DNA of 34,222 nucleotides from Alkalinema sp. RU_4_3. Lineage in GTDB: Bacteria > Cyanobacteriota > Cyanobacteriia > Leptolyngbyales > Leptolyngbyaceae. A program made the position numbers and the translations under genes. The notes beneath the pieces were generated by a model. It was not told the origin of the DNA, made no database searches, and saw only the letters and a list, made by a program, of their open reading frames with translations. Of the stretch, positions 6,126-29,909 are shown piece by piece; position 1 is the first letter of the stretch; each line of letters starts with the position of its first letter. Location: NCBI GenBank assembly GCA_012031975.1, contig JAAUSA010000024.1:1-34222 (forward strand), given 5' to 3'.

Positions 6126-6190
6126 TTGCCACAGCAATCCAAATATCGCTAGGCAGTTTTCCATCCATATTTGTATCGTTTTGTGTCAGA
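6126..6190. repeat. Dispersed repeat, copy 2
   Basis: This is a direct-orientation, imperfect copy of 3602-3668. Its right end overlaps the last codons of the histidine kinase gene (stop at 6186-6188), so the repeat may have supplied the present stop. The palindrome seen in copy 1 is partly lost here. Confidence 0.5.
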
Positions 6191-7814
6191 GGATGGGTAG
6201 GGCGATCGTCAAGGTCGTAGCCACTTTGGGTTCAGAGGTGAGGCCCAAGCTGCCTCGGTGGCTGTTTTCAACGATGTAGTGGCTGTTGGTTAGGCCGAGT
6301 CCTGTGCCGCTGCCCACGTCTTTGGTGGTGAAAAAGGGATCGAATACCTTATGTAGAATTTCTGGGGCAATACCCATGCCATTATCTGTGATGCTAATTG
6401 TCGTACGATCGCGCTCCTGAGTTGTCTTGATCACAATGCGAAAAACCTTGGTCTCGAATTCGGCTAGGCGATCGATGCCTTCGATGGCATTGGATAATAG
6501 ATAGAAAAATACCTGGTTGAGCTGGGCTGGATAGCAGGTGAGGGGCTCAATCGTTCCATATTGGCGATCGAGGCTAATGGGCGATCGGTAGGGCGTGGTT
6601 TCTAACCGTTGGTTGAGGAGCGTTAGGGTATTGTCGAGGCTTTCGTGGATATCGGCGCGTTTGAGTTCAGCTTCGTCAAGGCGGACGAAGTTGCGGAAGG
6701 ATGCGACGAGATCGCGGATGCGGGCGGACCCCGATTGCATAGAACTAATAATGCTGGGCATGTCCTCCTGGATAAATGCCAATTCCATGGTTTCCCGCTG
6801 TTCGGTAATCGATGCAGGGGGATTGGGCAGGGCCGCTTCGTACTGAGTGATTAATTCTAGGAGATCGGTGCTGTATTGAGCTAGGTAGCTCAGATTGGCA
6901 TGGATGAAATTAATCGGATTGTTAATTTCATGGGCAAAGCCAGCACCGAGTTGGCCTAGGGAAGACATTTTTTCGGTATGGACTAGTTGGGCCTGGGTGC
7001 GTTTTAGATCCGCGATGCTGGCTTCAAGCTGCTGGCCTGTCTGGCGGAGACTCGCTTCGGACTCCTTACGCAGGGCGATCGCATCCAAGGTTTGCATATG
7101 GGTGGCAAAGAAGGCTTGGATGACATCCTGCAATTCATTATTGGTTTTATAGCTGCGGGATAGGAACTCGGGGCAGGGGGTTTCTTGGAGGATGGCGATG
7201 CCCGCTTGGCGGACGTCGGCCTGGAGACGGACGATCGGCTCAATGAGACGATGGTTAATAATCCAAATCATCAATCCCGTCACACTAATGGAAATCAATA
7301 CCACCAAGCCCAAAACCCGCACTGAAAAAGCGATCAAATCATCCGAAATTTCCGTCGCATCATAGGACACCAGCAAATAGTAATTGCCATCCTGAAGCTT
7401 CACCTGCCGGGCCATGTCGTAGCGCCAGGGGTTTGTATAGTGGAGATTTTTGCCGAGCTGTTTGGCCTGGTCAAAGCTGAGGGGTTCGGCATTGCCAAAG
7501 GTTCCGACGGCCTGACCATTGTCTCGGTAGAGTTTACCCGCGATTAGGGGCGTGTTTTGTTTGAGCAGCGGCAAGGATTGGGCGAATTGGGTCGCGTTGG
7601 GTTGGGCGATCGCCAGCGTATCCACAGTCGCCACTGCCGTCATTTCTAATTCATCCAACTTCTCATATTTCCGCCGATAGGCCGAGGGCAAAAAGATCAC
7701 GGCCTCCATGCCTAAGATGCCAAATAAAATCCAGACGCTGAGCTGGCGCGATAGTTTTGAACTCAGGCCAGTGAAGCGCGATCCGAATTGGGAAGATTTA
7801 GGTTGGGATAGCAT
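6186..7814 (-). CDS. Membrane sensor histidine kinase
   Basis: This is a complete 542-residue two-component sensor. TM1 spans about residues 24-46. A periplasmic sensing domain (about 47-160) is followed by TM2 (about 165-187), a HAMP-like linker and a coiled coil up to about 280. The H-box with phospho-acceptor His295 lies in GAGFAHEINNPINF. The ATPase domain shows the N-box (LLSNAIEG, Asn442), the G1 box (DNGMGIA, Asp477), the F-box (FDPFFTTKD) and the G2 box (GSGTGLGL, 501-508). It autophosphorylates and should pass phosphate to a response regulator, but none is encoded nearby. The signal is unknown. The Cys-repeat lipoprotein gene lies 137 nt upstream on the same strand, so the two may be co-expressed. 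Confidence 0.93.
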   Translation of the reverse strand: MLSQPKSSQFGSRFTGLSSKLSRQLSVWILFGILGMEAVIFLPSAYRRKYEKLDELEMTAVATVDTLAIAQPNATQFAQSLPLLKQNTPLIAGKLYRDNGQAVGTFGNAEPLSFDQAKQLGKNLHYTNPWRYDMARQVKLQDGNYYLLVSYDATEISDDLIAFSVRVLGLVVLISISVTGLMIWIINHRLIEPIVRLQADVRQAGIAILQETPCPEFLSRSYKTNNELQDVIQAFFATHMQTLDAIALRKESEASLRQTGQQLEASIADLKRTQAQLVHTEKMSSLGQLGAGFAHEINNPINFIHANLSYLAQYSTDLLELITQYEAALPNPPASITEQRETMELAFIQEDMPSIISSMQSGSARIRDLVASFRNFVRLDEAELKRADIHESLDNTLTLLNQRLETTPYRSPISLDRQYGTIEPLTCYPAQLNQVFFYLLSNAIEGIDRLAEFETKVFRIVIKTTQERDRTTISITDNGMGIAPEILHKVFDPFFTTKDVGSGTGLGLTNSHYIVENSHRGSLGLTSEPKVATTLTIALPIL

Positions 7815-7951
7815 AGCGGCTCAAGGGGAACGGAATCCTAGGGTCCATGGGTCTAGGATGCCCGATTCGATCGAGACAATCAGCAGAACTAAGCGATCTC
7901 CGTTGATTCAATCGAAGAATGGGGCAAGATTCACCCCATTCTCCAACAGCA

Positions 7952-8188
7952 TTACGGCTTCTTGGAAGCACAGGGAGCTGCCTTAGAGGCGCAGGGAGCT
8001 GCTTTAGAGGCACAGGGTTTAGCCTTAGAAGCACAGGGAGCCGCTTTAGAGGCACAGGGGGCTGCCTTCTCCGTGGTTCCTGTCGTGGCACCGGGTTTGG
8101 CGGCGCAGGGATTGGCTCCGCAGCCCACGACTAGACCCATGCTGAGGGTCGCGGCGATCGCCATCTGAGAAATATATTGAACTCGCAT
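7952..8188 (-). CDS. Small lipoprotein with Cys-containing heptad repeats
   Basis: This 78-residue protein has a lipoprotein signal peptide ending in the lipobox LVVGC (lipidated Cys23). After an NPCAAKPG stretch come five exact 7-residue repeats of the form A-A-P-C-A-S-K. They place Cys at 45, 52, 59, 66 and 73, giving seven cysteines including the lipidated one. There are no acidic residues in the repeats, and lysine recurs once per unit. Similar PCAAK-type Cys repeats are scattered in bacterial hypothetical proteins, with suggested but unproven metal or thiol roles. Function is unknown; export and membrane anchoring are supported by sequence. It is encoded upstream of, and in the same direction as, the sensor kinase. 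Confidence 0.75.
   Translation of the reverse strand: MRVQYISQMAIAATLSMGLVVGCGANPCAAKPGATTGTTEKAAPCASKAAPCASKAKPCASKAAPCASKAAPCASKKP
7961..8065. repeat. 21-bp tandem repeat (5 copies) inside the Cys-repeat lipoprotein gene
   Basis: Five 21-bp units encode the PCASK heptads. Units differ mostly at silent positions, for example GCTGCC, GCCGCT and TTAGCC variants. The number of repeats has therefore been maintained at protein level rather than being a very recent slippage product. Confidence 0.85.
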
Positions 8189-8376
8189 TGGGGTTATGCT
8201 CCAAGAAGGTGAACAGGCAGCCTAGGAATTAGGCCCCATTTAGTATTACTCGGGAGGATGGCGATCGGATTAGTCTGGCCCAAGGGCATGGATCCAGCTG
8301 CGGTTTAACCCAGAGAACATCCAAACGTCATTCAACCTTGTATGTCAAACAGATAAACTATCAGCGGAGACAACCC

Positions 8377-8838
8377 ATGCGGCCCCCCATTCTACTCCTC
8401 GGCCTCAGCCTGATCGGCCTCCTAACGGCCTGCCCTAAACCCGATGAAGTCAAGCAACAGGAGACAGCTTCTGTGATCACCCTGACCCAAGTGGGCTGCC
8501 AGTTCCTCGAAACCGAAACCCAAAACCAGCAGTTCAAACCCCAGCGAGCCGAGGACTGCCGGGGCCTCAATGCCAAAGCTGATCGCCGCCCAGGCTTCAA
8601 ACCTCTCAAACTCAAGGCAGGCGACTACATCTTCCGCGTCACCAACCAAAACGTCCCCTACGAACTCGGCTTCTACCTGCGCGGCGAAGGCGTCAGCCAG
8701 GTCACCCTCCCCAAGGTCAGCGGCGGCGGCCTCACCCAGGGCCTCACCAAGGACTATCAGATCAGTCTCAAACCTGGAAAATATGTCTTTAGCTGTCCGC
8801 TCAACCCCACACCAGACTATCCTCTAATAGTGGAATAG
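8377..8838 (+). CDS. Cupredoxin-like lipoprotein
   Basis: Translation from ATG 8377 gives 153 residues starting with a lipoprotein signal (MRPPILLLGLSLIGLLTAC, lipobox LLTAC, Cys19). GGAGA lies about 8 nt upstream. An in-frame TTG further upstream (8338) would precede the signal peptide and is rejected. The mature part reads as a small beta-sandwich: VITLTQVGCQFLE, GDYIFRVTNQNVPYELGFYL, then SLKPGKYVFSCPLNPTPDYPLIVE. This resembles cupredoxin-like domains that end in a Cys near a GxYxFxC loop. No complete His-Cys-His-Met copper site is obvious, so copper binding is uncertain. It is followed after 10 nt by the cupin gene and is probably co-transcribed with it. Confidence 0.7.
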   Translation: MRPPILLLGLSLIGLLTACPKPDEVKQQETASVITLTQVGCQFLETETQNQQFKPQRAEDCRGLNAKADRRPGFKPLKLKAGDYIFRVTNQNVPYELGFYLRGEGVSQVTLPKVSGGGLTQGLTKDYQISLKPGKYVFSCPLNPTPDYPLIVE

Positions 8839-8848
8839 CAGGAGCCCC

Positions 8849-9436
8849 ATGACACAGGATTGGCTAGTGGACAATCGAGGCCAGGTAAGGCCCTTAGAAA
8901 CCCAGGCAATGGCGGAACGCGAAACCCCCTATCGCCTCTATCGCTTCCTCACCGAAGTCGAAGACATCCTGGCTAATAATTCAAACCCCCAGGCCCAACT
9001 CCAGCAGATTGTCCCCCGCGTCCGCTACCTGCTGGACCATTCCCCCTGGATCGCCATGCCGATTTTCCCCAACCCCGACACTGGCTGGGAAGTCCTGATG
9101 CTCTACGACGAACCCGACTTTCCCCTGACCGTCCAAATCGTCGCCTGGGCCGCTGGCACCGTTTCCCCCATCCACAACCACGGCTGCTGGGGCCTCGTCG
9201 CCCTGCTCGACGGCCAGGAGCAGAACCAATTCTGGCAGCGATCCGAGGACCAGCTCGAAACCACGACTACACAATTGCTCAACCCCGGCGAAATCCTCAC
9301 CTTCCTCCCCGACAGCATCCACCAAATCACGGCCCTCGGCGACCAGCCCACGATTAGCTTTAATCTCTATGGCGAGACCGACTATCAGCGGCGGTTTGAG
9401 TATGACCCCATCAGCCATCAAGCCGTGGTTTTTTAG
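8849..9436 (+). CDS. Cysteine-dioxygenase-like cupin
   Basis: The 195-residue protein has the cupin motif 1 VSPIHNHGCWGLVALLDGQE (about 105-124) and motif 2 PDSIHQI (about 154-160). His109, His111 and His158 form the expected 3-His iron site of the cysteine dioxygenase type I superfamily. Family enzymes oxidise thiols such as cysteine or 3-mercaptopropionate to sulfinates using O2 and Fe(II). Substrate cannot be deduced here. It is cytoplasmic, with no signal peptide. An AGGAG lies 6 nt before the ATG, and the preceding cupredoxin-like lipoprotein gene ends 10 nt upstream, so they form a likely operon. Length matches bacterial homologues (about 190-200). Confidence 0.8.
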   Translation: MTQDWLVDNRGQVRPLETQAMAERETPYRLYRFLTEVEDILANNSNPQAQLQQIVPRVRYLLDHSPWIAMPIFPNPDTGWEVLMLYDEPDFPLTVQIVAWAAGTVSPIHNHGCWGLVALLDGQEQNQFWQRSEDQLETTTTQLLNPGEILTFLPDSIHQITALGDQPTISFNLYGETDYQRRFEYDPISHQAVVF

Positions 9437-9565
9437 TTCAGAAAAACAAGAACCGATAAATCCGATCGCTTCCATTGGCTGTATATAGAGTACAAACCTA
9501 GATCAGGAATGATTGCTCTATGATCATTTCCCCTTGAAAAGTTGTTTCATGGCCCAGAATCTGCA

Positions 9566-10141
9566 ATGGACATATCTATGACGCAGCGGACAGAGCTCTC
9601 TGATCCAAAGCTGATCGAGGCCCTCCAACGTCACGATCGCAATGCCCTATCGGCAATCTACGATCGCTACAGTGGCCTCGTCTACAAGATCGCCCTGAAG
9701 ATGCTCCACCAAGAGGAATCGGCGGCGGATTTGACCCAGGAAGTTTTTCTGGAACTGTGGAAACGGCCCGAACGGTATCAATCCGATCGGGGATCCATCG
9801 GCGTATTCCTGTCTGTGATGACGCGATCGCGTGCCCTCAACCGGATTCGAACCGCCAAATCCCAACAGAACCTTCTCCAACGGGCCGGACGCAATGCCAT
9901 GACCGAATCCACTGCCAATCCCAATCTCGAACAGGCCACGCTCTCCGAACTCAGTTCCATGGTGACCCAAGCCCTACAGCAAATCCCCGAGGCCCAGCGG
10001 CAGGTTTTGGAGATGGCCTACTATGAGGGGCTTTCCCAGTCGGACATCACTGAAAAAACTGGGATTCCCCTGGGCACCGTTAAATCCCGCTCTCGACAAG
10101 GTTTACTCAAGCTTCGCGATCTTCTTAAAGACCTGGCATAA
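9566..10141 (+). CDS. ECF-type RNA polymerase sigma factor
   Basis: The product of 191 residues from ATG 9566 carries sigma region 2 (AIYDRYSGLVYKIALKML...ADLTQEVFLELWKRPERY...VMTRSRALNRIR). It also has region 4 (QALQQIPEAQRQVLEMAYYEGLSQSDITEKTGIPLGTVKSR, a helix-turn-helix). Regions 1 and 3 are absent, as in extracytoplasmic-function sigma factors. ATG also occurs at 9578, and an in-frame TTG at 9542; the ATG forms are preferred. The anti-sigma factor gene starts 6 nt after its stop, the usual pairing for an autoregulated sigma/anti-sigma unit. It should direct core polymerase to stress promoters when the membrane anti-sigma releases it. The regulon is unknown. Confidence 0.92.
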   Translation: MDISMTQRTELSDPKLIEALQRHDRNALSAIYDRYSGLVYKIALKMLHQEESAADLTQEVFLELWKRPERYQSDRGSIGVFLSVMTRSRALNRIRTAKSQQNLLQRAGRNAMTESTANPNLEQATLSELSSMVTQALQQIPEAQRQVLEMAYYEGLSQSDITEKTGIPLGTVKSRSRQGLLKLRDLLKDLA

Positions 10142-10146
10142 CTCAC

Positions 10147-10914
10147 ATGAACCACGATATGGACAACAATCAAAACCCCTGGCCCGAACTTCTAGCAGGC
10201 TATGTGCTGGGCGATCTTTCCTCCGACGATATGATTCGGGTGCAGCAACACCTGGAAACCCATCCTGAGGCCGTCGAGGAAGTGCGGGCCTTGGAAATGG
10301 CCCTGGGTTTGCTGCCCTTGGGTCTGCCGTCCCAGCCTGTGCCGCCCTATATTAAGACGAATCTGTTTAAGCAGATCGATCCGATGGCTACAAGGGAGCC
10401 CCGGCGGCATTTTCGCTGGCAGGTGGCGATCGGAGGAATAGCAGCGGCAGCAATCGCCGCCCTAGGTGTCCAGAACTATCAGCTTCAGGCCCAGCTTCAG
10501 GGTACGCGGCAGGAGGTGGCGGGGTTGCGATCGAGTCAGGAGAAGTTGGCGACCAACCGCGATCTAGCTAGCCTGGTGGGGAATTTTTCCGGGCGACGGT
10601 TGGAGATGGCAGGCAGCGGGGTGGCGGCGGGGGCCAAGGGGGAGGTGTTTATTATGCCGGAGCAAAATCGGGCGGTGCTGGCGGTGGATCATCTGCCGTC
10701 GCCGCCGCCGGGGAAGGTCTATCATCTCTGGGCGATCGTCGAGGGCAGTAAGGTGGGCTGTATTCAGTTTGTGCCGGAGCGCGATGGCAAAGTGTTGATG
10801 CAGTTGCCCGCCGATCGTTGGTCTGGGGCGGCACAGGTGGCGGTGACGCTGGAGCCTGTGGTGAGTGAGGCGGTGCCGTCGGGGGATATGGTGATGGTGG
10901 GCGATCCGATTTGA
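10147..10914 (+). CDS. RskA-family membrane anti-sigma factor without zinc motif
   Basis: The 255-residue protein has a cytoplasmic anti-sigma domain (about 12-60: LLAGYVLGDLSSDDMIRVQQHLETHP), one transmembrane helix (about 91-108), a short coiled coil (about 108-135) and an RskA-type extracytoplasmic domain (about 150-250: PSPPPGKVYHLWAIVEG...GAAQVAVTLEPV). The classical zinc-binding H-x3-C-x2-C of ZAS domains is missing: in HLETHPEAVEE both Cys positions are replaced. It should bind the sigma factor encoded 6 nt upstream and hold it at the membrane until released by a periplasmic signal, probably by regulated proteolysis as in other RskA systems. An in-frame ATG at 10159 is an alternative start. 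Confidence 0.88.
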   Translation: MNHDMDNNQNPWPELLAGYVLGDLSSDDMIRVQQHLETHPEAVEEVRALEMALGLLPLGLPSQPVPPYIKTNLFKQIDPMATREPRRHFRWQVAIGGIAAAAIAALGVQNYQLQAQLQGTRQEVAGLRSSQEKLATNRDLASLVGNFSGRRLEMAGSGVAAGAKGEVFIMPEQNRAVLAVDHLPSPPPGKVYHLWAIVEGSKVGCIQFVPERDGKVLMQLPADRWSGAAQVAVTLEPVVSEAVPSGDMVMVGDPI

Positions 10915-29092: not shown

Positions 29093-29909
29093 ATGACTGC
29101 TGCGATCACAAAAAATGTGGATACCAACTCAGCAATATTTTATCCCAGCGAGGACGGTCAACCCTTGGCGGAAACCTATGCCCATCTGATGGCGATTTTT
29201 GCCATTCTTTCCGTGTTGAAGCAATATTTGGCGGCAGAGTCGGCGCAGTTTAGTCGATCGATCGACAAGCCGGGCACAGTGTTGTCCGATCAGTTCCTGT
29301 ACTATGCCGAAGGCTATGCGGATCTGCGCGTAGCACCAGATGTCATGGTCATTCTCAACGTAGCGGGCGGTGGCCGGGATAACTATAAAATTTGGGAAGA
29401 GGGGCGAAGTTCCCTCCGTTGTTTTTGAAGTGACCTCCAAAGGCACCAAAGGCGAAGATGAAGGCTTCAAACGCCTGTTATACGAGCAGCTTGGCGTTCA
29501 GGAATATTGGCAATTTGATCCCAGGGGCGAATGGATCCCAGAGAAACTCAGGGGCTACTGGCTCGACGAGGATCGCTATCGTCCGATCGAAAGTCCTCGA
29601 AGTACGGTCCTCAAACTCCACCTGAAAGTAGAAGGGGAGTACCTCTGTTTCTACCGAGAAGACAACGGAGCCAAGCTCCTCACCCCCGAAGAACTGGCCG
29701 AGATGAACGATGCTCTGCTGGAAACCAATGGGTTTCTCTTGGAAACCAACGAGTCCCTAACGGAAACCAACGAGTCCCTAACGGAAACCAATGATTCCCT
29801 GTTGGAAACCAATGAGTCTCTAACGGAAGCCAAACTAGCAGCGGAGAGAGAGGCCGATCGCCTACGGGAAAAACTCCGATCGCTCGGTATCAATCCCGAC
29901 GAGATTTAA
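29093..29909 (+). pseudogene. Uma2 family putative endonuclease, frameshifted, with heptad-repeat tail
   Basis: ATG 29093 (after a GGGGGA) opens a Uma2 N-terminus (VLSDQFLYYAEGYADLRVAPDVMVILNVAGGGRDNYKIWEEG). The frame breaks at the G-run 29401-29404; one added G restores GEVPSVVFEVTSKGTKGEDE and QLGVQEYWQFDPRGEWI. The catalytic EVTSK then continues in the frame that ends at 29909. The restored protein is about 272 residues. Its C-terminus is a coiled-coil-like stretch of ETN-containing heptads, then the common cyanobacterial ending REKLRSLGINPDE. It ends 4 nt inside the convergent hisA. Unlike the intact Uma2 at 3740, this copy is disrupted or misread. Confidence 0.83.
29715..29840 (+). repeat. 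21-bp tandem repeat coding for heptads
   Basis: About five and a half 21-bp units (CTG-CTG-GAA-ACC-AAT...) encode the heptads L-L-E-T-N-E-S, with T-E-T-N-E-S variants. The units differ at a few positions. In-frame expansion of a coiled-coil segment is the simplest reading. Confidence 0.85.

Follow-up and report, generated by a model that had tools for sequence, protein, structure and literature searches.

The locus described here borders on several known systems. In cupredoxins, His and Met ligands are expected after the ligand Cys, and the known thiol dioxygenase carries a Ser-His-Tyr triad. Plastids and bacteria possess a transmembrane reducing pathway of the DsbD/CcdA-thioredoxin type (PMC3842002, in excerpt), and the YHS domain has been reported as a probable copper sensor (PMC4626032, in excerpt). 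We analyzed a stretch of 34,222 nucleotides from Alkalinema sp. RU_4_3 (contig JAAUSA010000024.1; hereafter the window) that carries a small Cys-repeat gene, a member of a family that is widespread in cyanobacteria and apparently undescribed so far. The repeat unit of this family, (N/D)PCA(A/G/S)K, did not turn up in the open-licence literature searched, although absence there is not proof of novelty.

A tandem Cys-repeat gene in the window

The gene at 7952-8188 on the minus strand encodes a stand-alone Cys-repeat protein of 78 amino acids, MRVQYISQMAIAATLSMGLVVGC-GANPCAAK...(A/K)xPCASK x5...KKP, in which a signal sequence with a lipobox precedes one NPCAAK unit and five xxPCASK heptads. Read by eye, the lipobox is VVG/C with its cysteine at position 23, and Arg2 lies in the n-region; given this basic n-region, a hydrophobic stretch and a lipobox Cys within the usual range of about 15-35, lipidation is predicted. 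The first claim of a sequence-only reading of this DNA, a tiny lipoprotein with five PCASK heptads, is thus confirmed as to the gene product. Searches of Pfam and NCBIfam returned zero matches to the protein, and a consensus scan of 7700-8500 returned no sigma-70-type promoter.

The heptads read, in order, AAPCASK, AAPCASK, AKPCASK, AAPCASK and AAPCASK, with an exact period of 21 nt, and Tandem Repeats Finder, which is blind to reading frame, recovers the same array. Silent differences between units had earlier been taken as a sign of selection on the protein, a claim that is borne out: the 10 unit pairs differ by 30 silent single-base changes as opposed to 4 replacement codons, a count biased by the choice of units through the amino acid string PCASK, and 6 of the 8 variable columns are third codon positions. 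Open reading frames on the plus strand overlap the gene (for example, 7919-8134); an antisense gene was considered and rejected, as the conserved N-terminus and the silent changes favor the minus strand. A second 21-bp tandem repeat array lies elsewhere in the window, at 29720-29833.

The neighboring histidine kinase

The sequence-only reading had also proposed that the peptide serves a nearby membrane histidine kinase as its periplasmic sensing partner. The kinase gene (6186-7814, minus strand) does share the orientation of the repeat gene, as had been noted, and lies 137 nt downstream of it; a hairpin, however, separates the two (7914-7944, minus strand; 14 bp, loop of 3, −18.9 kcal/mol), starting 8 nt past the stop codon of the lipoprotein. 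This hairpin is terminator-like, lacks a clear U-run and was not reported by the consensus scan for regulatory signals. Conserved linkage, suggested at the time as a check, proved rare. Full-length homologs of the kinase with at least 40% identity occur in four other genomes of the family (G027, G031, G007, and G024), and only in G031 does the kinase lie near a Cys-repeat gene, which is there fused to thioredoxin, 2.3 kb away and on the opposite strand; this single case speaks for the partnership. Of the named cupin loci (the best 80 of 333; see below), a single one, L045, holds a close homolog of the kinase, and it is the same contig as the G031 locus. The kinase that is conserved behind the cupin is a different one. 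A partnership between lipoprotein and adjacent kinase is accordingly very improbable, and the latter is probably a neighbor that does not belong to the system.

The repeat family across cyanobacteria

In the 58 related genomes searched, homologs share the N-terminus and repeats, followed by a thioredoxin (WCxxC), YHS or DM13 domain; others stand alone, as does the window protein, which stops after the repeats and lacks the thioredoxin domain with the WCxxC motif carried by fused relatives. A class-wide profile built from stand-alone and fused forms matched 286 of 388 genomes, many through the thioredoxin part only. When a strict rule of at least 3 units was applied to the loci fetched, 95 distinct repeat proteins were found among the loci examined: 42 fused to thioredoxin, 36 stand-alone, 16 fused to YHS, and 1 fused to DM13. 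As the family extends across the class, the window frame is not a product of chance. Similar repeats are known in proteobacteria.

The 95 proteins contain 604 units, with a preference for N or D at −2, P at −1, A at +1 and K at +3 relative to the Cys, and the family unit is best written as (N/D)PCA(A/G/S)K with a Cys spacing of 5 to 8, mostly 6 and 7. The Cys at every seventh residue that had been singled out as unusual therefore stands for the window and falls as an essential trait, the strict heptad being a local variant; a coiled coil built on heptads was likewise rejected, since the spacing varies. Between successive units, the P, C and A codons differ 7, 2, and 698 times at codon positions 1, 2, and 3, respectively; because the search pattern itself demands P and C, the information lies solely in the A position and in the silent divergence. 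A stand-alone protein has from 3 to 15 units, and 30 of the 36 such proteins have a lipobox pattern; the mature parts of the stand-alone proteins are 12.7% Cys, Met is absent and aromatic residues nearly so.

The shared N-terminus and repeat would also be expected of a passive spacer, a degenerate remnant left after loss of the thioredoxin domain. We disfavor this explanation as quite improbable, given that there are 36 distinct stand-alone proteins, many of them intact and linked to the cupin, and that P, C, and A are conserved over the 604 units together with silent divergence, even if the search pattern leaves no freedom at P and C.

Several further loci were noted in these searches. On plasmid pAQ7 of the model strain Picosynechococcus sp. 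PCC 7002 (NC_010474.1; L164, 9246-9586), RefSeq annotates an open reading frame, WP_156785491.1, antisense to the Cys-repeat gene, which shows that the annotation calls the wrong strand. The window peptide itself had zero matches in a plasmid collection searched by tblastn. A lipoprotein of Met/Lys repeats (DAMKxDAMK; L043, 6783-7193, minus strand), flanked by a DM13 protein and an anti-sigma gene in the vicinity of CcdA, is possibly a Met-repeat counterpart of the Cys-repeat protein. KSKPCSKK repeats in genome G021 (L023, from 1458, plus strand) look unrelated.

Linkage to a thiol-dioxygenase-like cupin

The conserved neighbor of the repeat gene is a cupin, usually divergent. When named genomes were searched with the cupin alignment, 333 loci resulted, and the best 80 were taken as the named loci; 54 of these 80 have a strict repeat gene no more than 4.5 kb from the cupin. 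Where at least 2.5 kb of upstream sequence was present (66 of the best 80), a strict repeat gene was found in 46 loci and was divergent in 41. A relaxed scan of the remaining 20 recovered a repeat or related thioredoxin gene in 13, and none in L064, L065, L066, L093, L095, L116, and L118. In the class search, at least 26 of 41 stand-alone-type matches lie within 4 kb of a cupin, at least 25 of them divergently, among the matches listed; the other 15 have no listed cupin nearby, so that the linkage is incomplete among these matches. Longer frames in the class tables lie within 4 kb of a listed cupin in 4 of 17 cases, again among the matches listed. In genome G243, the two genes are divergent and about 1.1 kb apart. 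A quick tree built from 107 cupins, of which 85 were labeled, requires at least 18 changes of repeat type, at least 4 of them forced by strongly supported branches for the stand-alone class; linkage to the cupin thus persists when the attached domain is exchanged.

The window cupin (8849-9436, plus strand) is a thiol-dioxygenase homolog in fold and iron site. A profile of seven cupins matched 3-mercaptopropionate dioxygenase (E 2.2e-17), mercaptosuccinate dioxygenase (E 5.2e-13) and also cysteine dioxygenase, and the structural model (mean pLDDT, 92.3) was matched best by Foldseek to these same enzymes (E 7.5e-13, TM 0.73, 25% identity). The cupin fold carries a three-His iron site, and all 107 cupins compared have His109, His111, His158, Tyr174, and Arg182. 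The Ser-His-Tyr triad is altered: Tyr174 is present in all 107 and position 170 is Ser in 88 and Thr in 19, and position 172 is Asn in 107 of 107. With Asn172 in place of the triad His, the activity of the cupin may differ from that of the known enzyme.

Regulator genes and possible partner proteins

In 48 of the best 80 of 333 loci, the cupin gene is followed by one for a HAMP-type kinase, as a rule together with an OmpR-type regulator, and 14 of the same 80 have an ECF sigma/anti-sigma pair near the cupin. The window has the latter version: an ECF sigma factor of the PRK12519 subfamily (9542-10141, plus strand) and an anti-sigma factor (10147-10914, plus strand; RskA_C, weak zf-HC2) replace the kinase/regulator pair, which is absent beside the window cupin. 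After removal of 21 duplicates from 139 loci, the 118 that remained, chosen for a cupin or a repeat and hence representative of that sample only, contained CcdA in 43, thioredoxin reductase in 12 and ECF sigma in 17. Thioredoxin-fused forms are accompanied by CcdA and sometimes by thioredoxin reductase. The window genome, which is 97% complete, has no thioredoxin-fused repeat copy and no dedicated CcdA; it encodes one distant exported-type thioredoxin and two distant CcdA homologs.

In 9 of the 118 loci, the cupin and repeat genes have an FGE-sulfatase-like lipoprotein nearby (for example, L143, 6036-7010, plus strand). A peptide-modification (RiPP-like) reading, for which these lipoproteins are the sole support, was rejected.

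Between the repeat gene and the cupin, the window encodes a divergent lipoprotein with a predicted cupredoxin/EfeO-like fold (8377-8838, plus strand) and three conserved Cys in the mature protein besides the lipid Cys. Homologs occur in 17 of 388 genomes, a number that includes the window genome; three copies (G240, G234, and G210) look broken. In 11 of the 17 genomes the gene neighbors a cupin gene of the same orientation (3.1 kb away in G007 and less than 0.4 kb in the others), and in 9 it neighbors a stand-alone repeat gene of opposite orientation, making the arrangement of repeat gene, divergent cupredoxin-like gene and following cupin a recurrent one. The model is of middling confidence (65.6), with EfeO (E 1.2e-5) and cupredoxins as best fold matches.

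Discussion

The redox or metal context that had been suggested for the peptide is supported by its relatives, fused to thioredoxin, YHS or DM13, and by the adjoining genes for CcdA, a thiol-dioxygenase-like cupin and a cupredoxin-like lipoprotein. We tentatively favor the view that the repeat lipoprotein serves as an envelope thiol reservoir and that its locus responds to thiol-redox and possibly also metal stress, a reading to which we give a little less than an even chance. A small, disordered lipoprotein would then present six nonlipidated thiols in a row on the outer face of a membrane. These tethered thiols may take up oxidants or soft metals and be regenerated through thiol-disulfide exchange. 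In the fused relatives, this would be the task of the thioredoxin attached to the repeat, fed by the linked CcdA, in some loci with a thioredoxin reductase, such that electrons might pass from NADPH through thioredoxin reductase, thioredoxin, CcdA and the envelope thioredoxin to the Cys repeat. The stand-alone form of the window could depend on proteins of this kind from elsewhere in the genome, or on the cupredoxin-fold lipoprotein as a partner, while the linked cytosolic cupin might tune or report small-thiol levels. The locus would be switched by the kinase/regulator pair or, in the window, by the ECF sigma/anti-sigma pair.

The thioredoxin fusions and the CcdA and thioredoxin reductase neighbors fit a recycled reservoir. 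Such a reading is weakened by the incomplete linkage to the cupin and by the window genome, with neither a fused thioredoxin nor a dedicated CcdA, and Asn172 in the cupin triad counts against it as proposed. Moreover, the YHS fusions, the EfeO-like fold and a kinase whose nearest models, below the cut-off, include heavy-metal sensors point to metal as much as to redox.

Soft metals therefore remain the chief rival, on the strength of the YHS fusions and the cupredoxin-fold neighbor. The repeat protein would, on that account, be an envelope scavenger of Cu(I), Hg or Cd whose thiols bind metal within a metal-stress regulon. YHS, the probable copper sensor of PMC4626032, is attached to 16 of the 95 repeat proteins; a kinase is closest, among others, to heavy-metal sensors (218 bits with the cztS_silS_copS model, below its cut-off of 292.55); and merA and a DedA-family gene lie beside the locus on a plasmid of Synechococcus sp. 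NIES-970 (L165, 1601-3936). Yet the clustered CxC or CxxC motifs of metallothioneins are absent, the repeat Cys being spaced mainly 5-8 and never less than 5 apart; the mature parts lack Met and almost all aromatics; the cupredoxin-like protein retains Cys140 with none of the expected downstream His/Met ligands; and the commonest fusion is to thioredoxin. We regard this metal-scavenging account as rather unlikely, and an oxidant and a metal role could coexist.

The envelope thiol reservoir would extend to a broader proposal, which we consider possible and on balance doubtful: that the (N/D)PCA(A/G/S)K repeat is a portable envelope thiol brush, borne alone or on thioredoxin, YHS or DM13, and that, joined by a thiol dioxygenase and by control in which a kinase and a sigma factor are interchangeable, it may form an undescribed system for measuring and buffering the thiol or soft-metal state of the envelope. 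The analysis ties several cyanobacterial genes that lack annotation together as a single, testable envelope-thiol locus and offers a direct hypothesis for the role of exported CcdA-linked thioredoxins and of a conserved thiol dioxygenase homolog in phototrophs.

Compared with metallothioneins and copper-binding Cys-rich peptides, the window protein is likewise small and rich in Cys, but it is a predicted lipoprotein without CxC or CxxC and without a Pfam or NCBIfam match. The 8377-8838 protein has EfeO as its best structural match, but it is short and lacks the rest of EfeO, and its model confidence is only 65.6. The cupin shares with the 3-mercaptopropionate, mercaptosuccinate and cysteine dioxygenases the fold and the three iron-site His, yet differs in the Asn that replaces the triad His in all 107 sequences and in its 25% identity to the best fold match. 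As for the DsbD/CcdA-thioredoxin pathway (HCF164/CCS5 type), its description in the excerpted part of PMC3842002 includes no Cys-repeat arm, and the window protein has no thioredoxin domain; what the fused relatives have in common with that pathway is an exported thioredoxin domain and, next to it, a CcdA (DsbD_TM) gene.
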